The notes beneath the pieces were generated by a model. That model made no database searches and was not told the origin of the DNA. It worked only from the letters and a program-made list of their open reading frames with translations. A stretch of DNA of 64,000 nucleotides. Origin: Astropecten irregularis. Its lineage: Eukaryota; Echinodermata; Asteroidea; Paxillosida; Astropectinidae. This document shows positions 19,376-45,336 of this stretch, in pieces. How positions within the stretch are numbered: the stretch's first letter is position 1; each line of letters starts with the position of its first letter. Position numbers and translations under genes: made by a program. Location: the NCBI GenBank assembly GCA_963971285.1, contig OZ020252.1, positions 20,683,662-20,747,661 on the forward strand, read 5' to 3'.

Positions 19376-20377
19376 TCTTTGATTTGAAGTACCAATGTTC
19401 ACTGTTTCACTGAATATCACAAACTCACCATGTACATGTACGTCTGGCGACAACAAATCTGAAAATTCCAGACTTGATCTATGAATAATTAAAATTCAAT
19501 ACCTGAACACGCGTATGCAATTAAATAACCGCAACTCGACAAACAACAACAAAAATCAATTTTATTTTTTCATTCTGACACAACCATGAAGAATTGAAAA
19601 AGAATTGGAAAAGCCAATTAGCATGTTAGACTCGTGGTTGGAATATTAAATACAGGTTCTGTAGTTTGAGAATATCAATATGGCAAGACCTTGGAGTGGA
19701 GATGGTGAGAAAAAGGCTTGACATTTTAGCATGAACCAGACAAAATCTGAGAGGAAAAACTGCACAAGGAAAATATCCAAATGAAATTATGACGCATGAT
19801 GCTTTTTTTTGTTGTTGTTGGATGGGGGCACTGCAAAGGATGAATTTACTGTCAAATATTTGTGTGTAGAATTTAAAATGTCATCAATAATTGGACTGGG
19901 TTTATACTGAGCACTTCATAGACTGCTTCCAAGAGCTAGCTCTCTCTCCTATTTGGAAGAATTTTGCAAAATCTCGGTTTTGTGCCACTAGTAATGCCGC
20001 TTTATTGATACCATCTTGCCCTGATACGTAGCTAATTAGCAGACGGCTTGCCACCAACCGACCCCCTGGGCCACTTACACTTTCGTAATTCCATTTTTTT
20101 CCTTCCAAATGTGGGATGCCTTCATCGCAGTCATGCTGTTACTTAAAACAGCTTGGGTCCCCCCCCCCATACACACACATACACCACTTTCTGAAAGAAA
20201 AAGCAAGAAAGGAGCCCCCCAGGGGAGATTGGAGCCGGTAGCCGCTGGTGGCGACATAACTTTCCATCTCTTCTATTGAATTATAGGGACTTGACTGCCT
20301 TGTTATTAAGTCTTAAAATAGTATTTCTCTGGTCATTAGACTGAAGCCGACAGACATATGCCTAGAGGTAGCAGGGA

Positions 20378-20400
20378 AGGGGGGGGGGGGGGTGGGGGGA
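20378..20400 (+). repeat. Poly-G tract
   Basis: Long G run with one T interruption. Prone to sequencing error. Confidence 0.85.
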
Positions 20401-20779
20401 TGGAAGGTAGGGGGGACTTTATTTATCATTATGGGTCTGGATTGGCTTGGGATCAGCGCCTAGTAGTAGTACTCCTCTTAATTGCTTCGTAATCACTCGG
20501 GGCCACATGACATTTCAGATGCCCTTGAAATAAACAAATTTAATGAGAGGAAAAATCAATAGTTACGTGCATATTTATAGATATACATACATATGTATGA
20601 CATTATGGCTAATTTCAACAACAATTTGGTAATTTTTTGTTTCCATGTTTCCATTGAATTGTGTTTGTTATTCGAGAATATGCAGTATTTAGTGCAAGAC
20701 TCGAACAATAATCCTTTTTTTGTGTGCTTAATGTTGGTTGTTTTTTCAATTTCTGTGCATTTTTGGTGCACGTCTGCAG

Positions 20780-20839
20780 CAAGCCCTACAGACCGCATTG
20801 CGCCCAGATGATAACTTGGACAAAGCCCTCCAAATACCA
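20780..20839 (+). CDS. CELF: Candidate CELF cassette exon (60 nt)
   Basis: Twenty open codons, QALQTALRPDDNLDKALQIP, lie between a good acceptor (T-rich tract then gtctgcag) and a fair donor (CCA|gtaggt). Both ends fall on codon boundaries, exactly the phase needed between the exon ending at 16130 and the one starting at 28440. The Q/L/A-rich content fits the linker. Skipping it joins YFA directly to MLVNLM, which aligns better with vertebrate QYLALYLQLL, so if real it is an alternative exon. No RNA evidence. Confidence 0.42.
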
Positions 20840-21838
20840 GTAGGTCCATTTCTCATCAGATTCCAACCAAAAAAATCAATCAAAACTCACCAGAAAATTA
20901 ATCATTATCATTATTGAGAAACAAGACATCTAAAGTACTTGGCCCTGTAGTCTATTAACACCCCCCCCCAGGTTCCGAGTTTTCTAAATTCTCTCGCAAG
21001 ATGAATATTTTATTAGATTATTTTGAAAGTTTCCCCACGATCATTGCATTTGCCAGAATAATTTGTATTATGAATAATTCCACGTTTATGAAAAATTGAG
21101 TAAAAAAAACCATGTCGTGTTTGCTTTGGCCCTGAGTCTTAAACATTTTCCAAAGTGGCTTTTAAAAATCATTATCACATTTATGAAATTGAGATTTCTC
21201 CTTTCAGTTTTGGTTTTTTTTTTTTTTTGTCCCTACGACTGACTATTTTTATGCACGAGAAAGAAACATTGCAGGGTTTTTTTTCTTTTTTTTTTGCCCC
21301 AAGTCTTGAGTAGTTGAAATTCTCTTAAAAGATTACTGCATTTGTCGGCCTGTGCGTCTAGAGGGGCTATATCCCTATTCCCCATGGGCTTGTTAATGCG
21401 CTTGCTGTAACACCCAGGTCTGTTTAGCTTCGGAAATCGGCCGTGGAGGCTGACCCAGATTGAGCCACGGGAATTTTTTTTCTTCTTTGGTCCCCTCTCT
21501 CACACTTTTTTCATCCTTCCAGGAGAATTTCTAATTTGTGGATGTTGTGGAGTACATAGCCTTACAGCTTTTTTCCTTTCTTATACTTTGACTCACCAAA
21601 GGGGACATCACTGCCCCCATGCATCCCCCTCTCAAAATGTGATGCTCCAAATCACATGGTGTATTTTCTTGTACGAAATCATTGAAATAAGTGAATGCGG
21701 TTGTATCTATTGGGTGTATATTGTAGATGTGGATCCGTCCTGTAGTGTATAGGTCTCTATGCAAGTGCACATGATCAAAAAGGGGATCGGTTTATGAAAT
21801 CAGACACAAGCACATTATATCAGTTGGTCGCATTTCAT

Positions 21839-22084
21839 CAGGGGCCAATTTCATGGAGCTGCTAAGCACAAACAATTGCTAAGCACAAAAATGTCTTGCC
21901 CAATAAAACAAACCACCATTAAAAATTCTATTTCATATTTATGGTCGGCGGACAACTGCCAAAGAACAATCACAAATGAAATACAACGCATGGAAATTTG
22001 GTTGTTAATCCTGTTTTTATTAAGACAAAGATTTTCATGGTTAGAACATTTTTGTGCTAAGCAGGGCCGTGAAATTGGCCCCTG
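21839..22084 (+). mobile_element. hAT-like MITE (CAGGGGCC ends), copy 1
   Basis: It starts CAGGGGCCAATTTCATGG and ends CGTGAAATTGGCCCCTG, a clear terminal inverted repeat. CAGGG-type ends are characteristic of hAT elements. The repeated word GCTAAGCACAAA sits inside both ends. No matching 8-bp target duplication was visible. Related copies are at 40855-41064, 38300-38360 (fragment) and probably 35302-35806. Confidence 0.8.
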
Positions 22085-23317
22085 GTGTTGAAGTCTTGAA
22101 TACCTTGCATCTCTAGTATAAGAGTATGATAAGCATATGTACATCTAGGTACAACCACAAACCCACATGGAATAGCTTATATTATGAAGTACACATTGAG
22201 CTTGGTTGAATGTCACCGTGTATTATTTCTCACTATTCCAGTCAGCGCGCAGCCCACTGCAAATAGCTTCCGTTTGTTTTCTACGTATGCACATTCCGAC
22301 CGGCACTGACTGACTTTGCATATATAATGAGCTCGGAGTACGCGTTTTAAAAAGATCGTAACGTCCATACTAATGGGTCTTTTGTTATAATTTGATTGGA
22401 TTATGTGGGGTATAGAGGTTAATTTTCCATTCTGAAATGAAAACATGTTTGGGACGTATGCATTACGTGAGATTTAGCGGCAAAACCACTTGTCTTTTTG
22501 TATAAAAAAAACTGGCGTAGAAATGGTCTTCATATGTTGTCTCACAATTTCTCCGTAGAAATGAACCATATACGAACCGGTAGAGAAAACATTCCTTTTC
22601 ATCATTATCTAAAATCCTACGCTTTAATTTTTGGGAAACAGTCAGGAGCAGTCAAAATGTTCACCCTCTCCTCCCAAAAATGTAACGAAACACGAGTCTT
22701 AACCCGCTACCCCGTCCTCAATGAAGCGCAGCTGTGGTTGGTCAATTGGTTGTTGGAGGTCATTTATCCTCGGATATCAGCCAATCATGTACTGCAGTAC
22801 AGTACGCAAGGCAACGACATCAAGTTTGATGCCCAGACTCCATACGCAAAAATCAGTTCAAATCTTCGCCACGTGAAGCAACCAGACGATTCGTCTACAA
22901 CCGTGTGTACAGACGTGGCAGCGTTGTCCTGAGAAAAATGGTTATGAGAATATCGATGTTTATTAAATACGGTCTTGATTTTTTGCCTACTATTTTTAAT
23001 GGGTCTTCTGCAATTTTGTGTTAATTAATATGGGTGTGACTGAGGCCAGGCCCTCGGGTTGCATTTATTTGAAAACAATTATGAATGGTAGGCCTACGAA
23101 GTTAAATAAGTGCACCACTTTTTAAAAATTAATAAAATTTAAAATGTTGCCTTTTACAAGATCTCATTTACTTCTTGCTCAGTGGAGGAAGAGAATGTTT
23201 TCCCACTACAACCTTCAGCATTTTCTCAAAAGTTAAGGCATAATCCAAAGGTCCACAACATTAAACATGAACAAGACTAAAACAAGAGTTTTGTTTCTTT
23301 TGGGCAATAGTGTAGCA

Positions 23318-23323
23318 TTTATT
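23318..23323 (-). terminator. Possible poly(A) signal on the - strand
   Basis: TTTATT on the + strand reads AATAAA on the - strand. It is followed on the - strand by a transcript-end-like T/G-rich stretch. It would serve a nested - strand unit starting near 24.95 kb. Such hexamers are common by chance in AT-rich DNA. Confidence 0.25.
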
Positions 23324-23539
23324 AGTTCAACTGCTCTTCAACTGATTCCTATTGTAACACAATAACACATGAACATGAAAACCAACAAACTTGGCAGTTT
23401 TGTTAACTGTTACTGTAACCGTTCCTCCATTCAGCTGGCTGGGAGAGAACGTAACAATGGAAACATATCAATAATATTAATAGCACAAAGACTGAGTACA
23501 CACATTAAAGTAATTTCAGTAAACATTAACAAAATTGCA

Positions 23540-24230
23540 ACGCCACTTTATAAATAATACAAACAAAAAATAGAAGTCAACACACAACAAAATAATCACA
23601 TTGTATACATTTGTAGGCATGTTTAAGCAAGGCAAGTACCCCTTTTGGCTAGCTTTGGGCAATATTCAAGATTTTAACACCCCTCAACATTTTTACCATC
23701 TTTAAAAAATAAAAGTTGAAAATATTTGTTAAATAGAGGAATTGTCAACTTTAGTCCACACACTTGTTGTACTTAACTGGTTCTGAAACCATTGGCATTT
23801 TCTAAAACATTTAGTAAACAAAAAAAGACAAAAATCAATCTTACATAATAAAAATGATATTATTGCAAGTGCTGTACAACTTTAGTAGTGATAAATTAGC
23901 ACATTTTGTTTCTCCATGTGGACCCTGAGAATAAGCATAACAATGAACACACATTTTTAAGACATGTATACAGTATTCAGACATATATCAATTATAACAC
24001 AAAGACTTCATGTAGACCAAAACAGATCTTCAGTACAAATATCTAAATACAACAGAAAATGTATATGCATAAACACAAATTACACTTGCTAGTACACGCA
24101 AATTTATAAATACTGTACACAGAAACAAAAAAGTAATCACATGTGACATCATTTACATTGCATACATGTTTAGGCAAGTACCCGTTTTGGCAATCTTTGG
24201 TCAAGAGTAAAGGTTTTAACACCTCATGCT
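23540..24230 (+). repeat. Diverged internal duplication (units about 23540-23690 and 24105-24230)
   Basis: Both units share the order 'aagtaatcaca'-like, 'atacat(g)ttt..ggcaagtaccc', 'ttttgg', 'ctttgg' and 'ttttaacacc.c'. A third fragment (TTTAGGCAAGGCACACATTA) sits at about 24376. The repeat explains part of the AT-rich core of the 2.7-kb block. Confidence 0.6.
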
Positions 24231-24772
24231 TATAAACAAAAAAGTTAATACTTGCTGGATACAAGACGAGTGTGGTAAACCTTTACCCATGTCTATACAC
24301 TTAATTGTCACATGAAAGTAAATGGTACAAAATATAAAGTATAAAGTAATAAAAAAAATATTAATATATATGTATTTAGGCAAGGCACACATTAGGTGAC
24401 TGATATTGGTTGCACAAGTCAATGGATGGAAAAAATAAATAATTAACATGTGACGTCACAATTCATAGCAGAATCGCACGCTAAACCACCAAATCTCGCA
24501 GTTTTGAAATGTAAAAAATGAGATAAATACTCCGCACCGTAGAAACATTATTGATATTGAACGATGGGGAAAACCTCAATCTCGCCAAATATCGTCACCA
24601 TTTCAACGTATCATTTCGGAAACAGTCAGGAGCACTAAAAACGTCTAAGATACTACAAGCGTTGTTCGAGAATTAAGACACACATTGGGGCTATTTTTCA
24701 CGCGAAAATCTAAAAATTAACTGATAAAAAACGATTTTTTTTCATTGCTTTAATCATAAACAATGCACTCAC

Positions 24773-24950
24773 CACGCCATGATGGCCCAGCAGTGACCTT
24801 GCCAGGTTTCCCGAGAGCTTTTGCAGGGTTACTACTGAACTCTCGTGTTTTCTCGCAAACCTCCAAAACGCACGAGAGTGTTTTTTTCCTGCAAACAAAT
24901 GCTTGCGGGCGCCTCATTATAGCGGGGGCTGCGCGCTGACTGTTCACCAT
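24773..24950 (-). CDS. Exon-like ORF of unknown product, possible first exon of a nested gene
   Basis: Read on the - strand, an ATG at 24950 opens MVNSQRAAPAIMRRPQAFVC and runs 59 codons, ending ...KVTAGPSWR plus one base, where a consensus donor (G|gtgagt) occurs. The N-terminus is rich in Arg, Ala and Ser with no acidic residues for the first 29, which resembles a mitochondrial presequence. Composition is GC-richer than the surroundings, and an AAGGTCA-like and GGCAATGGCG-rich stretch lies upstream. No convincing second exon was found. The start overlaps the 17-bp inverted repeat, so it may instead be transposon sequence. Product not recognised. Confidence 0.25.
24840..24878. repeat. Hairpin, CTCTCGTG stem
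   Basis: CTCTCGTG at 24840-24847 pairs with CACGAGAG at 24871-24878, with a 23-nt loop, inside the exon-like ORF. Confidence 0.6.
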
Positions 24951-26498
24951 AAGGCTCTGCTACGCCATTGCCTTGACCCCAACCTGACCTCAAGATACAT
25001 GCATGCATGGGGATATTGATGACAGCTAATTAAACGCAAGTGTTACATCTAATGGAAGGGAACCTTAGCCTTGAGTGACATGGCACAGAAACCGTGACAT
25101 TGAAACATGTTAGCCATAGGGAGTGGGGGGGGGGGGAGCACACGAATAAAGCCCAGGCCTTGGGTTTATTTGTAACAATGGAGGGCTCACTTGATATCCT
25201 GAGGCCAACTGGAAGGAAATTATCAGTCCTGCATGCTCTCCATAGATTGAAAATCCATACATTGTATTAAAAGGGTTATAGAATGGGATACTTCATTCGG
25301 CAGTTTTCGCTTGGGTTTCATGTTTGAGCAATAGTGATGGGCGCTTTCATTGACTGGGAATAATTTGGGTCCTTCGTTTCATTTAGGCTACATAGCATGT
25401 ACTTACTGTACATTATGTATGCCTACTGTATATTTCATACGTGCATGCAGTAGAAAAGTGAAGTATACATGTACACTGATCCTTGAAAACAAAGATCAAT
25501 GTTAACATGTTTATGAATATTTTAGGAATGGCCTAAATTAACATGAAACTGGCCTTGTTCTGCCAACTTTCAAAGTGGCAGTGAGCTGTGTAGTCGGCAT
25601 ATTTTGTTCCTTAAATCTACCTCCAAGTCAAATAGTGTTTTCAGGATTCAGCAAATGTAGGGTTGGAACTAGGGTCTAGGAGATTGATATGTTTTCGTGT
25701 CTTTTTTAAGAGGAGGGTGTGGAAGGGTAGTGCAGTTCTGTCTCATATTATACGACAACACAAATACGTATTTAACGTCGTTACAAGTTTCATCACTTTA
25801 AGTCCACAGTAATGTCTTCACTTTTAGAATCCTCATCAAATTCTAATGATGATGGGAGGAATTGATAGTCATTATTTAATGTTCCTTCACGGTTGTGGAT
25901 TATTTAATACCGCGTCACTGCTTAGACATGTAGATGATGTGATACATGTACATCAATACTGTAGGTTGATAGCACATTATCCTGTGCAGTATAGACGCAT
26001 CATTATATTGAGGGGGATGTTTAGGGAGTTGTCCCATACCATGAAATCCATTGTCACTGCGGAGTTGGTTCTAATTAATCTCCGAACAATTTTCTCTACT
26101 CTTGTCAGACTAATTGTTATTGCCTTCTGATATCCTTCACTCCTAGCTTTCCTTTTAGTTGAATTTTCAATTTGTTTTTTTCCCATTCATACATTTTTCA
26201 TATTATTTTGCTTCTGTCTTTCATATTGTCTTTGTTTTTGGTACTTCATGGTCAGTTTTCCCATTCCACTTTATTTTTCCATCCCAAGTCCCTGACAATT
26301 TTTTTTTTTGGTCAATATCATCAGGTTTGGGTTGCTTTTTATTCCTCATTTTGACATATTTGATCCTTGCTATCATCACCTTGTCAATTTTGTCTTTTAC
26401 CATTTACCTTTTTACTTGCATAGTCTCTCTACCTTCCATTCCTATTACCGGTAATTGGCTTTTTCCCTGATGTTTTTTGTTTGATCCGTAACTTTACC

Positions 26499-26637
26499 TG
26501 GGGTGGATTTCACCTCATCGTAACTTACTATCAATCGTAGGATTTGTGATGCATTACAGCCCTTCGTAGGATATGTTGGGTTATCCTTCCTAACTCGCAT
26601 TACGATCGATCGTAGGGCTTCGTGACTTCAACCCCTG
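26499..26637 (+). mobile_element. Short inverted-repeat element, hAT-like ends (139 bp)
   Basis: The left end CTGGGGTGGATTTCACCTC and the inverted right end CAGGGGTTGAAGTCACGAAG are imperfect terminal inverted repeats. Inside, ATCGTAGGA and GATCGATCGTAGGG are further inverted words. No 8-bp duplication matched by eye. Confidence 0.65.
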
Positions 26638-28439
26638 TCCATCTTTCGCTCCTCCCCCACATTTTGCTTTCCAGTTTCATCCTCAGTTTAATACCCTTCA
26701 TTGTTCCTCTTGTGTCTGATCATAGAAGGCCTCTTTCCCCCAACTATCCCCACCGGTCCTGTTTGACTCTCTCTCACACCTCCTATCCAATCTTCTCTCA
26801 CATTTGTGTCTGATTATCCATCTTACCCCCTCCCATGAGAGGCAGACAGACCACGCCCCCACCCTCCTCCCTGCTGATCAGCATTGCAAATGAGTAATGA
26901 TCATCATCCGCTATCCTCCACTCCTCAAGGCTACTGTTATGATAGTTGAAATCCATATTTCTGTCGGTAATGGTATTGACTAACTGTCGTTGGCGTAGTT
27001 GGCGGTGGGAGCGCACTGGGGATCGGAGGATGGTATGTCCCAATGGCCTTGCAATATTGGTGAATAGGGAGATGTTAGATCGCTGGCTGGGTGCACGGTA
27101 GTACTTGGGGAATAATTAATTGGCCTTTTCCATGGCAAAGTGAATATCGTAAATTATCGTTGTACACTGCAGTACGTTGCAGAGCTGAATCCAAAATCAA
27201 TATAGATCATTATATAAAGTACATACCGTACATGATTTTTAACCAATACAAAATTTAGAAAACAAGAACATTTTTTTTGTTACAAAAAAACTCCAGCATT
27301 GACTGAAAAAGACATGATTAATTATCTTAAAAACAACTTGAAATAGAATAAATTATAACAAGTAATAACAAAAAATGTTCATCTTGAGAATTAAAAAAAA
27401 GAATTTTTTTTTTAATATACTTGAATGTCTCTGAGCCGATAAAAAGACTGCTGCATGAAAACCAATTTTCAGCACTGATTTTTATCACCAGCAATATTCC
27501 TCATAAAAAGCGTTGCCTAGCAACGGCCACTCCTCATCCTTTCACAGATTGAAAAGTTTCAATTTTCACTCTTTATCGTGCAGCGCATGTCTCATGCATG
27601 ACTGACATCAAAAAGGTTCAATGCGAGAACCGGTCTTGAAAACAAATCATCATTTTCTGTTTTTGTGTATGAATAAGTGGTGAAGTGGTTAACACTTTGA
27701 CTCGTTTGAGAGGGTCAGAAGTGGTTCCTTGTAAATTCTCTCATGGGTAAGGTCTTTTTATTCTGACATGTCTGAAGGTCGAGACCTATTACTATGGGTA
27801 TCAAACTCAGAGGTGCTCATAACACTCCACACTGTCAAAAAATGGTAATCCAATAACGGAGCTAGCTCTCAGCTTTGCAACGAGGAAACACACACCAAAA
27901 TGGAGACTGTTTTCCCTTAATACTCCATGCCATGCACACATCAAGCAGTTAGACTCTCCTCCATTGGGGGGAGAGGCGGTTGATATTGATTTGAATTTGC
28001 ATATGTTGAGAATGATTGGATAAGGCACCTGCCACCAAGGGGATTATTAACGGTAGGATGTGACCTTTATGAATATTCATGAGGTGAGGGTGACAGGGTG
28101 CTGGATGGGTCCATTTCAGGAATGGGTGGTTAGGAAAACTTTATTTACAAGTCCACACCACAATGCAACATTTGTTTTTGTTTCAGTATTTTTTGGTTTT
28201 ATTAATCTGAAAATGGTTTGAGAGTAGAAACTCAATCAGGCAGTATTAATACAGGAGGGCATCAGTTACCTTGGTTACCGTACATCAGTTACATTTCCTT
28301 TCTGAAACGTGTACTAATTATAGTTAATTTTAGTGGTGCAATCCATGTTTGTTTATGTTAATTTACCGTACTTTACAGAATAATCAGCACATTTGGATAA
28401 TATTTTTGTTGTCTGTGTCCATTTTTTTCTTATATACAG

Positions 28440-28515
28440 ATGCTGGTGAATCTTATGCAACATGCATCACAAACCGGTAACTTTGGAGCACTCAGTGGTA
28501 TGCAGCAATTGGCAT
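28440..28515 (+). CDS. CELF: CELF linker exon (76 nt)
   Basis: It encodes MLVNLMQHASQTGNFGALSG, then MQQLA plus one base. It aligns with the vertebrate CELF1/2 segment [20 protein letters not shown] that follows RRM2. Acceptor atatacag, donor gtaagt. It enters on a codon boundary and leaves in phase 1. It begins the divergent linker that in CELF proteins recruits partners for splicing and mRNA decay. Confidence 0.88.
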
Positions 28516-29373
28516 GTAAGTCAAATAATAGCTACACCGTAACATGGTAACATGCCATGTACATGTGTATTCAGCTGGTGACCGAAGAACCACTCTAGTC
28601 ATTTATATGAATTTTTGACCTGTAACCCGTTTTTGCAAGGAACTTTTGACCGGTAACAGTTTTTGCTAAATGTAAACATCTTTTATCACTTTGTAAAATT
28701 GTGCATAGGAGCCCCATTTAGCTACCCTTGTTCTTTTGGCTCAGCGAGCTATTTCTTGTGACCGATGTTTTCTTTATTCATAACTATCGAGTGTTACTAA
28801 CCAGTTTTTTTCTAATTTTTTGTAATCCTGTATAAAACATCTGCCCGAAGCTGCATAGAGATATTCAGTTCTAACCTTTTCCTGCCAAACAACGGTATTC
28901 AGAATTTGTGAAATGCTCCATGTTCATAGAATGGAGCAATACATTAGTTCAACATGTAACATTCTGTACATTTTAGGTAGGATTGACGTAGAATTCGCCA
29001 TGATTGAGTACTTGTGCCTGAAGTTCATATCAGTCAAGTGCATTTCCAGTTCTGTCTTTGATTGTATCATTTTGTCTTTGCATAAAAGTGGTCAATTTTA
29101 AGGAGATCAAAAGAAGAATTACTGGGGTGGGTTTTGAATCTAAGAGCTACAGAAAACCGTATCAGTGCCCCATGTTGGGGACACTCAATTGAAACGTGTA
29201 CCTTACTTTAACTCATGGTATCAGTCGGAATGATTGTGGGATTCTGATGGATTCTTGGGATGTTTCAAAACCAAAGATGACAAAATGGAAGGCACAATCC
29301 TGGGATAGCATTGATTATTAACATTCCATGACATGGACTTGATGTTTGGTCCCACTGTGTGCTTGCATTACAG
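28516..29373 (+). other. CELF intron (858 bp)
   Basis: No element recognised. Ends with gcattacag. Confidence 0.8.
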
Positions 29374-29478
29374 CAATGGCCAGTCAGAATACAAGTGGAG
29401 CAAGCGTAGCAGCTGCAGCAGCGGCGGCTGCAGCAGCTGCTGCTGCTAATCAGTCATTACAAGGCATGGGCAACACAG
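29374..29478 (+). CDS. CELF: CELF linker exon with 13-alanine tract (105 nt)
   Basis: It reads SMASQNTSGASV, then 13 consecutive alanines, then NQSLQGMGNT, with the Gly codon split into the next exon. The alanine codons mix GCA, GCT and GCG, so this is an old tract rather than a fresh repeat expansion. Vertebrate CELF1 has an alanine-rich stretch in the same place (AALAAAAS). Acceptor gcattacag, donor gtgagt. Phase 1 at both ends. Confidence 0.9.
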
Positions 29479-31038: not shown

Positions 31039-32490
31039 GTGAGTTTGACAGTAGCTTCCTGGTTACCAGCTTTTTTCACCTCCCGTTATTTGACCACAGA
31101 CATAATGTTTGATGGTGATTTTTGATCCAATGGGAAGAAAGTTGTACTGGTTTTGGGACATCGGTGTGGTGTTGTCTTTTCTGTCAATTGTTTCAAATTT
31201 GTGTGCTTTTTAAAACGGCTTTTTCCTCCCGTCTGTTCAGCGCCATTTTGTCTTCTTACTGTCTCTTCGTTTGTCTGTTCAATGTTATATTTTTGTGTCG
31301 GATACAGATATGTTGTTCATGTACATGTATGTTTTTTATGTTGCAAATGATATCTGATCAACTCAATATGTATACCTGGAGGAATCATGTTGTGTATGTG
31401 TGTTTGATTCTGTGTGGTTTGGGGCAGTGTGTATAAGTGTCTATGAAATATCAATGTCTGGGACATTATGAACGCAAACTGCACATGTGAGGAATAACAA
31501 GCAGTCATGCACACCTTACTCTCTGGGGCAAATCAAGGGACACACTCTGTCAAGAATTTGCTCAATTCACCCGACGCAGCTCTTAGCACACAGGGGAAGC
31601 CGAAATAAACCTTACTTGCAAAACGAAACAACCCTTCATAATTGTCAAATTTCTGAAATATTGCCCAAGGATGGCAATTCAATTTGTTTTGTTTTTCGGT
31701 GTGTCATGTTTTGAATTTGGTTTTTGGATTTGCGTATTTCACGGTTTTGTGGGTTTTTACTTTAAGGTCAGGGAGACAGGTGTTTCTATATACAATTTCC
31801 TGTTCTATTACCTGTATATGTGCTCTGCTGACCATGTGTGTTATACTACAGTTCTGTATTTCAATATATATCATCATATATGTGACCTTTATCCATGTTT
31901 TAATGTATATTGCAGATAACGTAGCTAGGCTTCATTGTAGTAATTTTACATGTATTGTATTTTGTGTCATGTATTGGGACAGCTTTAACTATTTTGAACT
32001 GACGTACTTGTTTTGCAGATTGAAAAAAAAGACGAGGAAACAAACCAGTGGTCGATGAATTTAGCAATTTTCTGCACTTAAGATAAAATCCTGGCGTGGA
32101 AATGAAATTGAAAAGATTTATGTCAAATTTCAGTGAAGGCGTTTTTCTTGGCATGCCATTAACACGAAACAAAATAAAAAAACGAAGAAAGAAAAAGTGG
32201 TAATTGAATTATTGCCAGCTTTGCAGCATCCTTAATGTGTCTTGCAAATAGTTCCACCTCTCTCTTCTTGAAGCTACCTGGAGTAGTGGCTTTTCATTTA
32301 TACTGGATCTTTTCTTATATTGTGCTGCCATTAATTATGGGCACTCTGGATGAAAAGAAATCTGCTAGCAAGGTGGAATGTTCACCTTAATTTGATTTTT
32401 GCCCCGTGGTGTCGACCACTGTTGTTTTCTTGTTGTTTATTTCCTGGGTGTATGTTGTGGTCGTCTATCGTTTGTTTGGTTTGTTTTCAG
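31039..32490 (+). other. CELF intron (1.45 kb)
   Basis: T- and GT-rich, with no recognised element. The last 30 bases are a TTTG-rich tract leading to ttttcag. Confidence 0.75.
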
Positions 32491-32712
32491 GTACTGGTTC
32501 GTCTGGTACCAACCGCTCAGGTAATAGTTCCTTTGGCAACCAAGGAGGACCTGGTTCCTATGGCAACCAGAGCGGTAATGGTTCCTTTGGCAACCAGGGA
32601 GGCAATGAATCATTTGGCAACAACCAGAGCGATAATGGTTCCTTTGGCAACCAAGCTGCCAGCGCTACCACCCCCAGCTTTATGGGTAGCGGGCTACAGT
32701 CAGGAGCCCAAG
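32491..32712 (+). CDS. CELF: CELF linker exon with S/G/N/Q-rich SFGNQ repeat (222 nt)
   Basis: The open frame of 73 codons plus split codons fits phase 1 at both ends. It contains five copies of an S-(F/Y)-G-N-(N)Q motif separated by GG, GP, SG or SD spacers, and ends FMGSGLQSGAQ. At DNA level the unit is about 30 bp around TTCCTTTGGCAACCA. Composition is almost wholly S, G, N, Q, F and Y, like prion-like low-complexity domains of RNA-binding proteins. The acceptor ttttcag is strong. The donor AAG|gttgta is weak, which suggests alternative use. I recall no equivalent exon in vertebrate CELF1/2. Confidence 0.75.
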
Positions 32713-34493
32713 GTTGTAAATGCGTTTACAAACAACAACGTTATTTTTCTTTTCTTTATTTTTTTTCCCTTTATTTGTTTATCAAATAATGACAACCGGT
32801 GCCCTTGTCACTGGTATTCCACTAATGCGTTCGAATGCAAACACAAACATCCATTCCCCATAACGTTAACAAAATGCAGATATATTCGCAAATTCCTTCT
32901 TCTTTTTTTTCTTTTTTTTTCTTTTTGGATATGAATTTGTCCTACCACTTTCAACCATTAAACGTTTTCAGTTGCAGTGGAAAAAATTATGAAATTTATT
33001 TACATGAATTTTAACTAAAACTAAAGGTGAAAGAAAATCTTACACAACCTTTAAAAAAAATTGTCATGTCAATTGAAAAACGAAAAATGGTGGACTTCAA
33101 AAAGAGTCTCGGCTATCATGAACGGACAGATGAAATGAACCCTTGGTGTCTCTGGGGTATTTTGTTGGCAAAACAAATTTTCTTCCCTAAACAGTTTTAA
33201 AAAAATCCCTGAAAGAATTTGGTATATTTGAGCATAGCAGAATGGGCATCTGTGGGCTGACGATTTATTTTACATTTTCCTATCTCAATACTACCTTGTA
33301 GTGACTGTGAGTTGAATAACCTACTAGAAACAAGCATATCCCCCTGAAATACTTGGCGGAAAATGACAGCATTCCTTTTTAATAGCCTAAGGGCTGCCAG
33401 GTTTGAAAGGGAAAAATCAACTAAATGATCATCCATCTAGCCTGGCCAGAATACAAGATTCACTGGGTATAATTGCCAAATGACTGCACGATTGAAAGTA
33501 GATTTATAAATTTTTAATTGAGATGGATTTGCAGTTATATATTCTTCCAAGACTCTTTGAGATGCGGTTTATACTTATTGCCGCCTGACATGGCATCTTG
33601 GCAGCATTAGCCTGTATTGTTGACTGCCTTCAAACCATCTCTCTCATATCTCGAGGAATCCAAACAGATTACATATCGATCCGTTAATTGCCTTTCACTT
33701 GTTTGAAAAGAAAGGAGCACAGGGCATATTTTACAATCACGTCCGATTCAAAACTACGACAGTTTCCTGTCAGCGTAGACAATGTCCCCTCGTTCATGGA
33801 GGTCCTCGTAGCTGGATAGGGATCAAACCATATTGACGATATTAGACTCTTGTTTGGGAGTTGAGGAAAAAGCATAGATTGAAATTCCGATGCTCACAGA
33901 TCGTTCATTATGTCGTTAAAGCAAGCTCTGTTTGCAGCTGTTGTTTCTTGAGCAAGATTGTGGGGTTGTGTTGCATTTTCAGGATCCTTTTTTGATTTCT
34001 TTCTTTCTTTTGGTTGGTTGGTTGGTGATTTTCCCCTCCACATACAGGTGTTTTGAATGTCAACCTGTCTGGGTTTTTTATTTCTGGTTTCTTTGTTTGG
34101 TCTTCTCGTCCTGCGAGTCTCTTATCACAAAACATCTGAAAAATGGGACTGAAATTTTTACCAGCCACGGTGGATTAAGCTCACCACTTTTCACAGAATG
34201 AACGAAGTGGTTTTGTGCTGTTTTTTGGCCTTGAAAGCCCTTTCATTTTTACATTGCAATCTCTGACTAGAGCCACGCACGCATACCGTATATGGCAGCC
34301 GGTAATGTACCCTTTGTAGAAACGTTTGATTAATCCTGGACTGTCTGCTGGTTTTATGGCAGATGATGTGAACGGCTTCAATGTGATGCCCAGTCACCGA
34401 GGCTCCAATTTTAGTCCCATTTTTTTGAAAGACTGTCTCTAATTCAGCATCATGTGACCATGATCGTTGTTTGTCGCGAGGTTTATCACTGTC

Positions 34494-36583: not shown

Positions 36584-36649
36584 GCAGTGGATCGAACACG
36601 GCAAACACTAGCAATCTCTCTGGACTATTGGGTCTCCAAGCATTAAAAG
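36584..36649 (+). CDS. CELF: CELF linker exon (66 nt)
   Basis: It reads GSGSNTANTSNLSGLLGLQA, then LK, with split Gly codons at both ends. NLSGLLGLQAL resembles the GLNVGSLAGMAAL-type hydrophobic patches in vertebrate CELF linkers. Acceptor ttttacag, donor AAAG|gttatc (weak). Phase 1 at both ends. Confidence 0.78.
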
Positions 36650-37286
36650 GTTATCATCCTAATCACTCATTATGTATGCATGATTATGCAAATGAAGCAG
36701 ACTGATTTGCATATTGTCTAGTGTTGATGTGTGATTGGTTGGCTCCTTCAGTAACTACTGTCTTTATCATTTTGCCATACATGTACATTCATTAAATGCA
36801 TATGAATTTTGTCTTTTTTTTATTGAGGCATTTCATATTGAATGTCAATACTGCCTAAGTAGAAGTGAGTTTGATGCAAACATTGTTGATTGGAGAAATA
36901 GAAAGCCGTATAAAAAATGACAATAGCTTCTATGAATAGTCAACTTAATAAGTGAACACATTTTATATCTCTGTTCACATTTTACATGTATGGCAAAGTT
37001 GAGTCAAATTTTACACATTAATAACCAGACATCCTTGAGTTGTTTGCGCTGCATTTCAGTCCTGCACTAATGTGTATATCATTTGCATACTGTATGCATA
37101 ATTTGTGTAATTTACTTTGCATTTGCATAATTTACCATAATTAGCATGTCATTTCCATTTATTGCAATCATTTGCATGCATTCACTGAAAATGTTTTTCT
37201 TTTCTTTTTTCCATTCATCTGCATGCTTTCTTGGCTTCCTCGTTTCACTTTTTCCCTGATTTTTGTTTGTTGTTGCCTTTTTGTAG

Positions 37287-37349
37287 GGATATATCCCTGC
37301 CAAACCTCAGCCCCTGTTCGTTCTGCTCTCCTTCACGAGCCTCAGAAAC
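37287..37349 (+). CDS. CELF: Candidate CELF cassette exon (63 nt)
   Basis: With a G from upstream it reads GIYPCQTSAPVRSALLHEPQ, then K and the first base of an Arg codon. A long pyrimidine/TTG-rich tract and ttgtag precede it, and the donor is AAAC|gtaggt. Both ends are phase 1 and the length is a multiple of three, so it fits the array. The sequence does not look like the neighbouring low-complexity linker, so confidence is limited. Confidence 0.33.
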
Positions 37350-38299
37350 GTAGGTTTAATATATTGACCTTTAACCCCTTCCTGTCTAGCTTGCTTCATT
37401 GTATCATAGTTGTCGTGCATCTGCTTAGTATTGATTAATTTGCAATTTTTTTGTCTGTTGTGAGTGTGTGGCTATTCCGTATCTTGGCTCTATGCCAAAT
37501 GATTGATCATTTTTTATTGTGTGATGTCATGAATTAGTATGTAGTATTCATCATGTCCTTTTATTTTATCATGAAGATGTTTTCCGTTTATGTTTATGTG
37601 GTTATTTTTGTTTTGTTATTTGATACTTGAAAATTGGTCTTAAATGAGACTTGTTTTCTTCTGAAGTTCAATGATTTCACGCACACAACCCCCTGTGACA
37701 GAAAATTCTGTAAAGAAAAGTTGTCAGCAAAAATTGGTAACTTGCTAAAGGAGAGGCGGAGCTTAACAACTTGAAGTAGGGGGCATATGTTTGATACAAA
37801 GAGAGTTATGGCAACTAGCATACATTTGGATTTCATTGGCTTTGCATTCTGTGTGCAACTGCAATTAGAGCATGCAGTGGACCTATGGCCTCCCAATTTC
37901 CCCCAAAAAGAGTTATGCACAATTTGTCATATGGAATATTGTGAGGTTATTGATACATACATACCAAAACAAAATCATTGACGGAAAAAATGATAGAGTT
38001 TTAAGGGATATTTTTTTCCTTTGCTTTCTTTACCATCTTCCATTATTACATTTATCTAATCCCACATTAAGTGCCATCTTTCCAGTCATCTTAACACTTC
38101 GCCAAATTTAATTTCTTCCGATTTTTCATTTACTAAAAAATAGTTTGTTTTGGTTTTTGTTTTACTTATGTATCGTTGTGTTGTGTAGTGCTTTGTGACT
38201 TGTGTGCATTTGTGTATCTTTTGAATGTCGGTGCCTAGTGTGTTATTTTAAGGAGTGTTTTACAGAAAAGCTCAAGAAGGGGATGAATTCCGTGTATAA

Positions 38300-38360
38300 A
38301 GACAGAAATGTCATGCTTAGCAAAATATTGTGCTAAGCAGGGCCGCGAAATAGGCCCCAG
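38300..38360 (+). mobile_element. hAT-like GCTAAGCACA family, 3' fragment
   Basis: AAGACAGAAATGTCATGCTT and TGTGCTAAGCAGGGCCG followed by GAAATAGGCCCCAG match the right end of the copies at 40855-41064 and 21839-22084. No left end is visible. Confidence 0.75.
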
Positions 38361-40011
38361 TGCTGTTTGTGTCCGAGAGACCACAGCACACAACCTCTTG
38401 GCAAATTGCTGTGCGTGCTTTCGACTTCGAATGAAAACGATTTGAAATTGCAGTACTTTATCCCTCCATTGCTGGATTGTGTAGATGGGTCTTCATGGTT
38501 GATTAGATGGGGTCATATCATTGGCTTACAATTTATGCCTCTCTCTCTGTTCATGGGATAATTCATGTATATCAATCAATACTTGACCATTGGCTTGTCA
38601 GGGTTTGGCTGGGAATTGAAGCAATTTCCCTGCACGATTTGATCTCGTTCTTTCAGTCAAAATGTCACATTGCCCCAGTTTCCTTCCCCCGATTGATTTT
38701 GTTTGCCACATTTCTCCACATTTCCAATTATATTTCACCTCCGCTGCTCGTCACTTTTTGAGTTTGAAGCGCAAGAATAAGAGTCAAGGAGTCTAGATTT
38801 ATTTAACTGGACTGCCATGTCAAGCCCACAGCTATGCCTTATCAGTATTTGTTTCGCTTTGTTTTTTCAGTTACTATTTTTATCGTCATCTTTTAGCCTT
38901 AAGGCGTAACAGATATGAGGAAATTGCAAAAGCCCCAAATTACGTGTATGGCATAACAAAAGGCCCCTGACTTATTTGGCAAAGACAATTTGGATGTAGC
39001 CCCCTGTCATGATCTGTTACATTTAAGCAATATCACATTCAGTAATCGAATGCAGAGATGAAAAAAGAGGCATCTAAAACAGTAAGTGATGATGGAAACG
39101 AGGGCAAACTGTGCCCAATTTCACGCCTTTACTTACCGGAAGCATTGAATTGACGCCAGAAACAGAAATGTCTATGCTTATGAGATGCTATTTCATGGGT
39201 TAGCAAAGAATTTTCAGTTGTGCATCTGTGTTGGTATCAAGGATCTCTTGCGTTTCTCGGATAGCGTAAACATTTAACACAAACCCAGTAAGCATAGAAT
39301 GAGGATCATAAGCGCCAAATTCTGCAGTAAGCAGACCCATGACATTGAAGCCTTAAATTACAGAACTTTGCCCTGTTGAGATTTCTTGACCAGGCCTGTA
39401 GTGGTCCAGATGGAGGCAGCCCTTGATGGGTTGTTAGCCAAATCTATTACCATCTTCAATCTGACCATTACTTGCCTGAACTATGAAACTAGGACATAGG
39501 TGTTGGGTTCTTGGCAGTGCTGGTGGAAGTTGTGACATGTTTAAACCACATGGATGTGATTTTCTCTCTTGAAATTGGAAAGTTCGAGCCCAAATTTGGA
39601 GTAAACGAATGGTGGATATCTTTCTGTTTGGCCAAAAGAAAATTATTTCTTTCCTTCTGGTAGCTACAATAGCGCCCTCTATTTCCAAACCATGTCAATT
39701 ACGGTATCTGTTGGTAGTTGAACATTCAAGCTTGCCAAAAAAAAAAAGAGGTTAAGAAAGAAGAGAAAAATGTCTCGTTATTTCTAGAAGTCGTGCCATT
39801 TCTTCCATATTTGCTCTGTGGCCATTGACCGCCATTCACTGCTTGATGGAAAATCATATCCCGTGGTTTCATGCTGCTCTGTAGTGTTTTATTTGAATTG
39901 GTGTTTTTGTGGTGTTTCCATTAATAACAACCATCTATATTGTGTGATTGGTTTTTGGTGTGTTTTGTGAACTTACTATTCTTTTGCCTTTTTTTTGTTT
40001 TACTCACCCAG

Positions 40012-40077
40012 GAGCCATGATGGGCAACACAGGGTCGTGCCTATCGGGGTCTGGCTTCGGACTCGGCGGAATGACAG
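40012..40077 (+). CDS. CELF: CELF linker exon, Gly/Ser-rich (66 nt)
   Basis: It reads GAMMGNTGSCLSGSGFGLGG, then MT, between split Gly codons. Acceptor actcacccag, donor gtataa. Phase 1 at both ends, 66 nt. The SGSGFGLGG motif is echoed by GSGSGFGGGLG in the exon at 44001, suggesting the two exons arose by duplication. Confidence 0.83.
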
Positions 40078-40854
40078 GTATAAAGCATTGAATTCTGCAG
40101 CTACTTGTCTGCACCCAGACTTTGTAGCTGTCAAGACATTGTGTTGTAGCGTGTCCCGGACCAGGGCAGCAAAAAAATCAGGAATATGAGTTGACACATA
40201 TCTTTTTTGGTTACCAAGAGCCTGTTTGTTTCGCCATGGATCTTGATCGCCATATTTGATCTTACAGATCCACGTCGCAGGCAGGATTCGCTAAAATGCG
40301 ATCCAGAGCAGCATCGGATCACTGATCGCGTTCCTGAAACCAACAGGCCCCTAAAATACAGATAGTTGATCCCAGCTGACAGATTTCATCAAAATTCAGA
40401 TATTTATCGTCAAAACATTCAGACAATAAAATGTGCCCTACACGTCACCCGTAATACATTTCTTAATTTGATTTCTTGAATGTAAAAATTGCTTGTCAAG
40501 GAGAATGACAATTAAATGCAAAAAAAATTGAAAATTGCAAAATGAAAACGGCACAAGTCAAAATAATGAAACGGCGGTCTTCCTGAGCAGGCTTCATGAA
40601 AGATCCTGATATGGACTGATATTGAAAGACTCGGACCTGCAATTCCAACGTCATTGGATTCAGGAATAGCTTGATGTTCCATACTCAATAAATTGAAAAT
40701 AAGACCTTTTTTTTTATAATTTACTATTTCAGTGTTGCTTGTCATGTTCTATGTGATATATGAGTATTATAGGAACATCACAACACTGCTATGTCAGATG
40801 CAGACAGCCGTATTCACATCATAAAAAACATTATAAACATTTTAAACATTATAA

Positions 40855-41064
40855 CCTGGGTCCAATTTCGTAGAGATGCTTAGCACAAAAAATTGCTTAG
40901 CACAAAAATGATGGCTTGCCCAATAAAACCAACCAACAGCCAAAGAACAGTTGCAAGTGATACACTACACATGAACATTTGGTTGTTAATCCTGTTTTTA
41001 TTAAGACAGAAATGTCATGCTTAGCCATTTTTTGTGCTAAGACGCTCTATAAAATTGGCCCCTG
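40855..41064 (+). mobile_element. hAT-like MITE (CAGGGGCC family), copy 2
   Basis: The left CCTGGGTCCAATTTCGTAGA and right TAAAATTGGCCCCTG are degraded inverted ends. The interior shares GCTTAGCACAAAAA, 'cttgcccaataaaac', 'gccaaagaaca' and 'ggttgttaatcctgttttta' with copy 1 at 21839. Confidence 0.82.
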
Positions 41065-41840
41065 AAATTTGAGTCATATTCCTGATTTTTTTATCCTGGA
41101 ATGGTCCATGTGTTAGCCCCACCTCGCTCCTTCCAACCTCGTGGTGTGATTATGATTTTTAGCGTTGTTCATGTTTTTTGGTTTTCATCTTATAAGTTGT
41201 TGTAATTGTATGTTGGTGTTTTACCACACAGTTTTTTGGTTTTTTTTAACTCCTCCACGGGTCTTGTTCCCATTGTTTGCCCATCGTTTAGCTTGTATTA
41301 GAGATGGGGGACCAGTCTGATTGCCTCGCACATTTTTAATTGTCTTTGTCTTTTTTTTTTTTTATGTTTATGTTTTTATTTTTTCCACAAGCTGTGCTGG
41401 ACGTCTAACCCTGATAAAACAAAAAACCTGTAAATTATTCAATGTATCGAGCTTCTGCTATTTATGTTGATTATTAGTCAATACTGATTCCTCTTTATTG
41501 ACGACTGCAAGGCATGCCTAACCAACATTATTTTTCTTTGAGTTTGATAACCTTGTTTCTCAAGCTTGGAAACCTGCAAATAACTGCTCTATGTAAAACA
41601 AAAACAAGAATTGCTTAAAAATAGTTCATACTTATTTTTGTTCTTACAATCACTACATTTCAAATGATCCTGATTAGAAATAAGAAAGACCTAAGAAACC
41701 AACTCGCCGATTTTCTGTCAAAAGAGAAATCCCTAGAATTATGTTAATACGGTAGATTGATTCATTGTGCCATCATTAAGGAACAAAAATTGTCCACGAA
41801 TATCTCTGAACAGGCAATAAGCCGCTACGATCTTACCCAG

Positions 41841-41882
41841 GTCAGCCAGGGGACCGCAGCTCCTGTACTTGGGACAGTCAGG
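41841..41882 (+). CDS. CELF: Candidate CELF micro-exon (42 nt)
   Basis: Between tcttacccag and CAGG|gtacgt lie 42 nt with phase 1 at both ends, reading QPGDRSSCTWDSQ between split Gly codons. The donor is good, but the pyrimidine tract is poor and the composition (Trp, Cys, Arg) is unlike the linker. The alternative frame (VSQGTAAPVLGTV) looks more linker-like but does not fit the phase. It may be fortuitous. Confidence 0.22.
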
Positions 41883-42256
41883 GTACGTTGTTTGCCGTGG
41901 TGGTCTTCGTTTGGTGTTTTATTTGTTTGGGTTTGCAGTTTTGCGGTTTTAATCACTAAAAACAATTGTGTGCCGAGTTTTCACTTCCAAAAGAAGAAAA
42001 AAAAACATCCATTATCGCACTTTACCAAAAGACACTTTACCAAAAGCACATGACTTTGCAAGTTGATGGCTACTATCCTTCTCCCCTGCCGTTTTGCTGC
42101 TGTTCGTTGTTTTAAGCTGACGTGTTTGTTTTCGTTTTTTCCTCGTCAAACATCACAATCAGTTTTTACCCCATGTTTTATAAGACCACAAACATGGTGG
42201 AATGTTGGATATCCAAGCAGAGATATTATCAACACAAGAATGAGCTTGAAACATGA

Positions 42257-42425
42257 GCTTTCCTAAGATATACGATAGCTTGGGTGTCATCTTCCTCTGT
42301 CTAGTGAAACCTGAGACATTATTGGTGACCTGAATAGGATAAAGTCAACAGAATGTTTGCCATTGTATAAAGCTGGACAGGTTGATGACTCCTGGCCATG
42401 TTCCACTCATTCTGATGTTTGGACA
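42257..42425 (+). repeat. Dispersed repeat pair, copy 1
   Basis: It shares with 47352-47525, in the same orientation and order, 'gagctttcc', 'atcttcc', 'ctctgtcta.tgaaacctgag', 'gtcaacagaatgtt', 'agctggacagg.tgatga' and 'ttccactcattctg'. Roughly 170 bp, no ORF and no clear ends. Confidence 0.75.
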
Positions 42426-44000
42426 CTAGTCTAGGATGGCAGCATCCATTACACAAGTCATGAGACTCCTCTCGTATTGAGAGGTCTAAATTTTATCCAG
42501 GATAGCTCTCATCCTGGATAAAAGCCTGTCTGTTGTTGGTAGTAGGCTTCCCCACCCATAGCTGCTCAACCTGTATAAGGTCAGACTTGGTTATTATGAA
42601 TATGATCCAGTACACACCAGACTTGCCAATAATTGCCAAGCTGTAAGTAAATAACATTCGAAATAATAAAAGGCGTTTAATACCGGTAGAATTACGCCAC
42701 CAAGCCAACTCAGGATTCATTTCTGTGGAAATGGTAACACCCTTAAAACATGGCATTCACAGTGAATTGGAAAAGAATAATAATAATAATATTGAAGTCA
42801 TTTCAATAAGTGGTGTATATACCAGCAGCATTTTCTGACAAATAAGTCCGCACTGGAAATAACCTCTCTCAGTTGATTAAATCTTGTAACAGCCTTCAAA
42901 ATCAGCCTCTAAGCTCTGTCTGGGTTGAGTATTAAATATGAAACATTTCAACATATTCACAGAAGTACATGAAGCGAGAAACAAGCGTTGCACAAACATT
43001 TTTTTTTTCGTCAAGGTTTTCTAACAAACAGCTTTTGGCCTTGGGATAACGGGGTAGTTGGATTTGATTAAGTTATTGACAATAACAATTGAGAAGCTAG
43101 GTTTTTCAGACGGATTTCTCCGTATTAAGAATTGAAAGCATTTTATGGGGGGGAGGTTAATGCATTTGAGCTCCGCCTTTATTTCGTTCCTTTTTTGATG
43201 GTGCCATTCTGTGTCAATTCCAACTTCACCCTCGGCATGAGTCATGTGTACATTAGATTCCGTGTTTTCATTTCTTTGTCTTGTATGAAAAGGTTTGTTA
43301 AAAGGGACGTGTATTCTCTCCCATTATTATTGCATCACTGTGTTTGAGATGTTCCGACCACCTCCCCCTCCTCTCCCCACCCCCTCCAACTCCAACAAAT
43401 TCTTCAAAGCAGGTGTATAAACTAAGACCAGCAGGCAATGAGTTCATGCAGAGAAATTTGTATAAGTCCGAAATTGATCGAAAAAAACCAATTTGTATGT
43501 TTTCCAGTACTTGGAATTGTATATACAGTATATATATGTATGTGAAGGCATCATGCAGTTTTATCATGTTCCTCTTAGTTTGGTACTTGCAAGTACATCC
43601 CTATATGTGCACATACATTGGGTTATTAAACAGCTCATGTAATGTTTTGTGTTGTTTTTTCCAAATTGCTGTTTTTTGTACCTCAGTGCCTTTTAAATCC
43701 CCCACATTGCCAACTGTTCTCTTTATTCTTCTATTTCTTGTGTTTCCTGTCCCCTTCTTGAGTTGGACACACAAGGCTCATGCAACACAATACCATTCCT
43801 GACTTTGTGGAATGAAAGTCAAACTTCTTGTGGAATTCCAGAAAAGAATTGCTGGATCACTAACGGATAAAAGAGAAAATCTGAAAATTGAGTAGAAAAA
43901 ATGTTGCCCTGTGGGACACCCTGCCTTGGAGAGTTGATCATTACCATGCAGCTTAATATGCAATAGCATGATGCCTGACCTTTACACTTTGACCCTGAAG

Positions 44001-44150
44001 GTTCGGGCATGGGCAGTGGAATGAGTGGGATGAACGGGCTTGGCTCCGGGTCTGGTTTCGGAGGTGGCCTTGGAACCGGAAATTCTAGCACGTCTGGACT
44101 GGACTTTAATGCATTGACACAGGCCTACTCAGGAATACAGCAGTATGCAG
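44001..44150 (+). CDS. CELF: CELF linker exon, Gly/Met/Ser-rich, ending in TQAYSGIQQYA (150 nt)
   Basis: It begins GSGMGSGMSGMNGLGSGSGF, continues through GGGLGTGNSSTSGLDFNA, and ends LTQAYSGIQQYA. The last block is one of the best conserved linker motifs of the family (vertebrate ALTQAYSGIQQYA), which fixes the reading frame. Acceptor ccctgaag, donor G|gtaatg. Phase 1 at both ends. The first part is a GSGM/GSGF repeat. Confidence 0.9.
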
Positions 44151-45270
44151 GTAATGCTCTACTAAAGTACAGTACAGGAGTGGTGTCAGAAGTGGGATAC
44201 AGTACAGGAGTGGTGTCAGAAGTGGGATACGATCAGTAGTGGGATTCCCACATAGTAACGTGCCACTCGGTTCAAAACCTCTCCTGTGATTTTCCTATTT
44301 AAATAAATCTTTTCTGAGCATTTTGAAAACAAAACCACACAAACCAGTCAGGAGGCTTTGCATCAGTAGCCCCCTCTTACCTCCTAGCCTTGTTCTCAAG
44401 CTGTTTGTTGCCCACTCAAGTCTTTGAATCACCTGGTCTGTCCCTGCTCGTGTTGGACCTACCAGCAGTGTGGCACTCATCCCATTTTCCTCATTATTTT
44501 TTTTCTCACATTTACTGACCACTTACTAAAAATTGCTGTGATTGTCTTTTTTTGCCGTACGTCTAATACCTTCTTCTGTTTGTTGGATTTGTGTGAAAAG
44601 TTCTTCATTTTTGCAGGAGTGGTTTCTGAACAAACTGGTCTTTAAACAAAAAGAAGAAGTCTGTTTCTTGTGAATAATCGTGCATGAGTTTATGCCTGTT
44701 AAAACCTTGTTAAATGCATGTTAATAACCGATTGGTGCAGTCTGTACGTAGTCATACGCCCAACATCTTTAGACCAGATACATCATAGTTTCCAGTTGAT
44801 GGACAAATGGGAACGCTATAAGCAAACACTAATCCTGTTTTGAAATCTGCAGTTCATGAGTTTCTTTGGATAATAACAAGCAAACAAAGTTTCTGGTAGT
44901 GTCTGCTTTTAGTCAATAGATTAGTAACTTAAACTTCATGATAGAAACCCGAGCCTCATTCATACTTCATGCATATGCAAATTGAATTGATGAATTTGAA
45001 ATTAGGTGCTAATATGAATATCAAAATGCAAACATGTAAAAAATGTTTTTTGTAAGGTCAATTTTGATGTAAATTCACATGATGTATGAACAAAGATATT
45101 GATTTTGTTTCATAAAATATAACGCTATCAGATCTATTCATTGGAACCATTTATTACCGTCAATTTCTTCTGAACCATCTACATGATATACATTATTTTA
45201 ACCCCAATTTGTCCTGTTCAGATTCTTGAATTATAGTCAGTAATGGTCAGTTGTTTCCTTATTCCTTTAG
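44151..45270 (+). other. CELF intron (1.1 kb)
   Basis: Opens with a 30-bp tandem duplication (44171-44230). The rest is AT-rich. Ends with attcctttag. Confidence 0.8.
44171..44230 (+). repeat. Perfect 30-bp tandem duplication next to a splice donor
   Basis: Two identical 30-bp units beginning AGTACAGGAGTGGTGTCAGA start 20 nt after the exon boundary at 44150. The frame stays open through both units (YSTGVVSEVG twice) and stops at TAG 44237-44239. Confidence 0.92.
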
Positions 45271-45336
45271 CACAATTCTCAAATGGATTTGGAGCTAATT
45301 TCCAACAGCAGGCGCTCAACACGAAGCAGAAGGAAG
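45271..45336 (+). CDS. CELF: CELF linker exon before RRM3 (66 nt)
   Basis: It reads AQFSNGFGANFQQQALNTKQ, then KE, with split codons at both ends. It corresponds to the vertebrate LLTQQSIGAAGSQKE segment, and the terminal [11 protein letters not shown] junction with the next exon is conserved. Acceptor cctttag, donor gtaact. Phase 1 at both ends. Confidence 0.88.

Follow-up and report, generated by a model that had tools for sequence, protein, structure and literature searches.

A repeat-built and very probably coding S[FY]GN exon between RRM2 and RRM3 in a CELF1/2-type gene of Astropecten irregularis

Gene identity and exon model

The window, a stretch of 64,000 nucleotides of Astropecten irregularis (C16:20683662-20747661 in a searched genome of 475.7 Mb and 168 contigs; contig OZ020252.1 of assembly GCA_963971285.1), carries an echinoderm gene of the CELF1/2 type. 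The CELF RRMs were placed by tblastn with a CELF1-like probe. RRM1 began 12.4 kb upstream of the window and ended at 11675, RRM2 spanned 12139-16130 and RRM3 spanned 45992-46724. The exons listed in Table 1 joined in an unbroken frame with TAA directly after the last codon, and the joined protein was taken without the N-terminus upstream of RRM1, which was unplaced. Pfam analysis of this protein gave three RRM_1 stretches (E 2.5e-48), two N-terminal and one C-terminal, the order of CELF/Bruno-like proteins. The best matches of the PDB search were CELF1/2 chains (RRM1-2, E 1.1e-71; RRM3, E 1.9e-47), with 4lmz, 2dhs, 3nmr, 2cpz and 2my7 as the top entries for the joined protein. The RRM_1 stretches and the PDB matches bear out a preliminary description of this DNA, in which the repeat exon had been assigned to a CELF protein.

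The repeat exon (L3) lies in the linker between RRM2 and RRM3. Its earlier description as a 222-nt exon at 32491-32712 with the weak donor AAG/gttgta was reproduced in full, and the two flanking positions given with it fell on exon ends, 29374 being the start of exon 29374-29478 and 36649 the end of exon 36584-36649, with the frame continuous in phase 1. From L2 to L7, every linker exon was in phase 1-1. Exons L1, L5 and L7 were found by scanning the introns for phase-compatible exons with a score that favours linker-like residues, and they are predictions because the weights of that score were set by hand. They scored 28.9, 24.4 and 19.9, while the runners-up in the same stretches scored 11.4, 10.5 and 2.1, respectively. 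A further candidate exon of phase 1-1 between L2 and L3 (30955-31038, score 12.4) was excluded for its residues, which are unlike those of the linker; it could be real. The ALTQAYSGIQQYA segment of L6 also occurs in the CELF1 probe. A second CELF gene was present on contig C14, where RRM parts were located in 50 kb and no match to the SFGNQ exon was obtained by tblastn with the spliced protein at E 5.

Several side observations were made in the same searches. The alanine run of L2 (29412-29446) uses mixed GCN codons. Directly 3' of the L6 donor, 44168-44230 holds a 30-bp tandem repeat of 2.1 copies which is perfect and therefore probably recent, and downstream of the CELF gene a tRNA-like Rfam match was seen at 59518-59590 (34.9 bits). 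Two COX1 matches were found elsewhere in the genome. At C25:9951047-9952018 the match is nuclear, has seven TGA in frame and may be a mitochondrial copy in the nucleus; that at C131:32162-33484, on a small contig, is an open frame lacking TGA and may be bacterial. The 16,335-base mitochondrial contig has a tRNA-Lys with anticodon CTT, a cluster of tRNA genes immediately ahead of COX1 and, opposite COX1, two long frames read by eye as ND2 and ND1. This is the gene order of asteroids and points to an echinoderm, probably a sea star. A major inversion in sea star mtDNA is named in a title cited by PMC11423521.

Table 1. Exons and sequence features of the CELF1/2-type gene in the window
Feature	Position	Strand	Phase	Basis and remarks
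RRM1 exon b	1945-2027	+		tblastn and joined model
RRM1 exon c	11627-11675	+		tblastn and joined model
RRM2 exon a	12139-12267 (start 12133 in joined model)	+		acceptor weak, -1.9
RRM2 exon b	13701-13783	+		tblastn and joined model
RRM2 end and linker start	16002-16130	+		tblastn and joined model
L1, predicted linker exon	28440-28515	+	0-1	top candidate in 16140-29360
L2, linker exon with alanine run	29374-29478	+	1-1	joined model
GU-rich stretch before L3 acceptor	32371-32490	+		11 TGT in 120 nt; 18 of 740 background windows have at least 11
L3, SFGNQ repeat exon, 222 nt, 74 codons	32491-32712	+	1-1	acceptor 10.1, donor -3.8, linker-like peptides
54-57-bp dimer of 27-bp units, tandem in three in-frame copies with five S[FY]GN	32489-32655	+		TRF, repeat search
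Possible 30-nt microexon, no S[FY]GN	32491-32520	+		in-frame internal donor TCAG/GTAATA, score 3.6
Non-repeat 19-residue tail of L3, CELF-linker-like	32656-32712	+		peptide-content test, GC
L4, linker exon, weak donor	36584-36649	+	1-1	joined model
L5, predicted linker exon	40012-40077	+	1-1	top candidate in 36660-43980
L6, linker exon, contains ALTQAYSGIQQYA	44001-44150	+	1-1	tblastn and joined model
L7, predicted linker exon	45271-45336	+	1-1	top candidate in 44160-45980
RRM3 exon a, 144 nt	45992-46135	+		tblastn and joined model
RRM3 exon b, coding end, then TAA	46606-46724	+		tblastn and joined model

Repeat structure and composition of the exon

Five S[FY]GN motifs recur in L3 every 9-10 residues, at residues 14, 23, 32, 41 and 51 of the exon. 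Five S-(F/Y)-G-N-Q motifs had been described; four of the five are S[FY]GNQ and the one at residue 41 reads SFGNNQ. The degenerate repeat of roughly 30 bp described with them is a tandem repeat whose unit is better given as 27 bp inside a dimer. The dimer encodes 18-19 residues, its first copy starts at the acceptor AG, and copies 2 and 3 were 63% and 73% identical to copy 1. The repeat search returned a 56-nt stretch three times, at spacings of 54 and 57 nt, both multiples of three. TRF scored the array 177 at period 54, the maximum of the window, and 128 at period 27, while an array of at least 100 was found in none of 200 shuffles of 31991-33200, for which the same command gave 177 on the real stretch. 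When the exon was shuffled 2000 times with its dinucleotides preserved, no shuffle carried two or more S[FY]GN in a forward frame.

The composition of L3 was G 27%, S 20%, N 15% and Q 9.5%, with G, S, N, Q and T together at 77%, so that polar residues and glycine make up most of the exon, as in prion-like low-complexity domains. Aromatic residues numbered 6 of 74 (8%; five F and one Y), and five of them are evenly spaced in the motifs. According to the available part of one source, prion-like low-complexity domains contain 15-20% aromatics, uniformly spaced (PMC9748015); the aromatic content of L3 falls below this range and its spacing agrees with it. The best PAPA score was 0.039 with L3 and -0.137 without it, against a cut-off of 0.05, with our own version of the PAPA parameters and the protein minus its unplaced N-terminus. 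An AlphaFold2 model of L3 alone, from one sequence, had a mean pLDDT of 52.9, which is low confidence. The prion-like character proposed earlier is thus upheld by the even aromatic spacing and the polar, glycine-rich composition, and not by the aromatic content or the PAPA score. L3 is borderline, and we rate it as a segment of weak stickers and spacers rather than a full prion-like domain, because its aromatics are under 15-20%, its PAPA score is under the cut-off and its AlphaFold2 model is of low confidence.

Units 1-5 showed four differences from the consensus in their S[FY]GNQ core; three were silent third-position changes and the other one changed F to Y. The p value of this bias was 0.03-0.07, depending on the mutation bias assumed, and a small palindrome, which folds into a 6-bp hairpin in three of the five units, may account for part of the core conservation. 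The mostly silent differences are weak support for coding, and weaker still when the diverged first unit is counted, with which the NG ratio of the core rose from 0.11 (units 1-5, four events) to 0.21. The same measurements bear on the possibility that L3 is a constitutive, neutral linker whose length drifts and whose sole effect is to space the RRMs. This is a possible account, on the unlikely side. Vertebrate-family CELF linkers between RRM2 and RRM3 are given as 160-230 residues in the accessible part of the source (PMC3368720). The linker L1-L7 had 176 residues without L3 and 250 with it, so that inclusion of L3 decides whether its length falls within this range. The lengths given for the family, the richness of the rest of the linker in G, S, A, N and Q, and the loose conservation of the spacer codons between the motifs (NG ratio 0.65 in units 1-5) would suit neutrality, but the low NG ratio of the core and the even spacing of the aromatics argue against it.

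Coding content and splice sites

L3 is very probably a coding exon, because the peptides of its start, middle and tail are linker-like and those flanking it are intron-like. The peptide test used a residue-composition model trained on the remaining linker exons (six, 167 residues), with which all stop-free intronic 19-mers on the gene strand were scored. The first, middle and last 19-mers of L3 scored 17.5, 20.5 and 15.3, and 0 of 16007 intronic 19-mers scored as high (median -15.7), a count that is not a probability because the intronic 19-mers overlap. The five stop-free peptides directly outside the ends of L3 scored -12.3 to -21.8, and an alternative open frame across its tail scored -17.7, so that the test picks out the frame of L3 and its two ends. 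Three of the six training exons had been picked with similar weights. Training on L2 and L6, or on L2, L4 and L6, again gave 0 of 16007 for the first, middle and tail peptides, and training on L6 alone, an exon found by homology, gave 1, 0 and 13. When the known linker exons were left out one at a time, 0 to 22 of 16007 intronic 19-mers scored as high as each, and the L3 tail was alike. The tail is linker-like yet lies outside the repeat, which argues that the exon truly extends to 32712.

The GC content of L3 was 53.6%, a value reached by 7 of 8082 intron windows of the same length, and that of the tail was 63% versus 31% in 32713-33000. GC change-point analysis placed the best 3' break at 32713, which is the donor, and the best 5' break at 32401, which is not the acceptor. 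The open frame was dropped as coding evidence, since a second forward frame is also open and 3 of the 40 good acceptors in 16200-45200 (L3 being one of them) are followed by at least 73 open phase-1 codons. The L3 peptide alone gave 0 matches in the PDB search and 0 in Pfam.

Splice sites were scored with metazoan matrices, which were not trained on this animal. The acceptor score of L3 was equalled or exceeded at 10 of 3245 AG sites in the window, and the score of its donor at 32712 at 1478 of 4176 GT sites, which is the level of an ordinary GT. This donor was the lowest of the 13 scored, in line with the weakness first remarked on. Since L3 has 222 nt and phase 1-1, it can be skipped without a frame shift, and the internal donor at 32520 (equalled or exceeded at 36 of 4176 GT sites) also preserves frame and phase. 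Judged from the phase, the weak donor and the in-frame donor at 32520, it is plausible that splicing decides the presence of the stickers. L4 and L5 resemble L3 in their weak donors (36649 and 40077) and phase 1-1 ends, and so further parts of the linker may be optional.

Self-binding of CELF at the GU-rich stretch before the L3 acceptor is possible. GU-rich autoregulation special to L3 was rejected because several further exons are accompanied by comparable stretches, with TGT counts of 13 for RRM1 exon b, 13 for RRM3 exon b, 10 for RRM3 exon a and 9 for L5. Of the 12 GT sites from inside L3 to its end, 10 preserve reading frame and phase, most of them lying in GGT codons for glycine, so competing donors could yield CELF proteins with any number of S[FY]GN motifs from zero to five. 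Such a counting of stickers, perhaps with CELF bound to the GU-rich stretch and with condensation graded as a result, is a doubtful proposal.

That the microexon 32491-32520 alone is spliced in, with the repeat intronic or rarely used, is improbable. The donor at 32520 is stronger than that at 32712 and would keep the frame, but the repeat and tail are linker-like beyond all intronic 19-mers under the full model, in the sole fitting frame and with their end at 32712. The count of 13 of 16007 for the tail under L6-only training limits this counter-evidence. The repeat spacing, a multiple of three, also argues against an intronic repeat.

Origin, proposed role and related systems

The array was confined to the exon, beginning at the acceptor and stopping inside L3. 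Within 2 kb outside L3 the best match to the 27-bp unit was 16/27, and the maxima of six shuffled windows were 16-18; matches of 19/27 at 5539 and 12558, just above those maxima, are single and look unrelated. In the whole genome, searched at the DNA level with simple repeats skipped, no second copy of L3 was found at E 1. A genome protein search with the L3 peptide gave four other matches (E 0.24-0.97), which were rejected as relatives of L3 because by eye they look like other tandem repeats with different motifs. Tandem duplication within the exon is therefore likelier than an exonised minisatellite, because the array spares the introns and no second genome copy was found in that DNA search. 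The proposal that a minisatellite became an exon thus finds no support in the form given. The imperfect tandem DNA repeat, the weak donor and the presence of other minisatellites in the genome would agree with exonisation of an intronic minisatellite, but an array that runs from the acceptor and ends within L3, with no unit above shuffled maxima within 2 kb and no second copy in the DNA search that skipped simple repeats, makes it quite improbable. That the conserved core acts as DNA or RNA, through a small hairpin in GGTTCCTTTGGCAACC, rather than as a protein motif is very improbable, since, although the same hairpin recurs among the units and the region folds slightly better than its shuffles (z -1.75; equalled by 4 of 100), unit 4 retains SFGN and Q without the hairpin and the linker-like tail lies outside the repeat. 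The GGCAAC of the core resembles half of an RFX X-box, which we take to be a candidate match.

Gene identity, frame, repeat structure, coding-like content and the one genomic copy found are results of computation, and the duplication history, disorder, condensation effect and optional use of L3 are inferred. The explanation that we favour, with a probability of roughly 0.55 as a whole, is a coding CELF exon with in-frame dimer duplication, with stickers that raise self-association and with splicing that plausibly switches them. A dimer of 18-19 residues would have been tandemly duplicated in frame within a linker exon, and the 74 residues of L3 would lengthen the RRM2-RRM3 linker (L1 to L7) from 176 to 250. 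L3 would place aromatics every 9-10 positions on a G/S/N/Q spacer as weak, even stickers, and these may increase the tendency of CELF to self-associate in RNP condensates. The weak donor at 32712 versus the stronger in-frame donor at 32520 would let splicing set the presence of the stickers.

To our knowledge, the vertebrate CELF linker has no tandem SFGNQ array. The earlier remark that vertebrate CELF1/2 is not known to have such an exon was checked against one CELF1-like sequence, in which L3 was unmatched, and motif-pattern scans gave 24 matches in viral contigs and 217 in non-animal genome contigs, with no relative among them. In the literature containing SFGNQ, SYGNQ or GSFGNQ, none by title concerned CELF or echinoderm RNA-binding proteins, and a search on CELF and echinoderms gave no sea star CELF paper by title among the matches listed.

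Three known systems were compared with L3. The disordered hinge of CELF2 is reported, in the available part of a preprint, to drive nuclear condensates and to be replaceable by FUS or TAF15 IDRs (PMC12869637). It resembles L3 in protein family, in its place between RRM2 and RRM3 and in being a low-complexity linker, and differs in that the part of the preprint at hand names no separate sticker exon (PMC12869637). By analogy with this hinge, a role in condensation would be the likeliest effect of L3. In hnRNPDL, the absence of a Y/G-rich exon alters assembly, according to the accessible part of the report (PMC9842712). Exon 6 of hnRNPDL is likewise a single low-complexity exon with aromatics in an RNA-binding protein; it belongs to another family and to a C-terminal low-complexity domain, and has proven alternative use and a fibril core (PMC9842712, same part). 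This alternatively spliced exon may serve, again by analogy, as the closest working model for L3. The N-terminal prion-like domain of Drosophila Bruno acts in oskar granules (PMC9042795, available part). Bruno is also a CELF-family protein in which a low-complexity part governs granule assembly, but that part is N-terminal and Ser/Asn-rich by PLAAC, and neither a repeat nor an exon is described in the available part of the paper (PMC9042795).

A linker exon of an echinoderm CELF gene that is built from a sticker repeat and is very probably coding would be a modest novelty, and a splice-switched prion-like domain is put forward as a hypothesis. If L3 is spliced optionally, it would provide a natural experiment, since a single CELF protein would exist in two forms, one bearing the repeat of evenly spaced aromatics and one lacking it. 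It would then allow a direct test of sticker number in the linker of an RNA-binding protein against condensate behaviour, in an animal with accessible oocytes, and would show how sticker repeats originate via duplication inside an exon.
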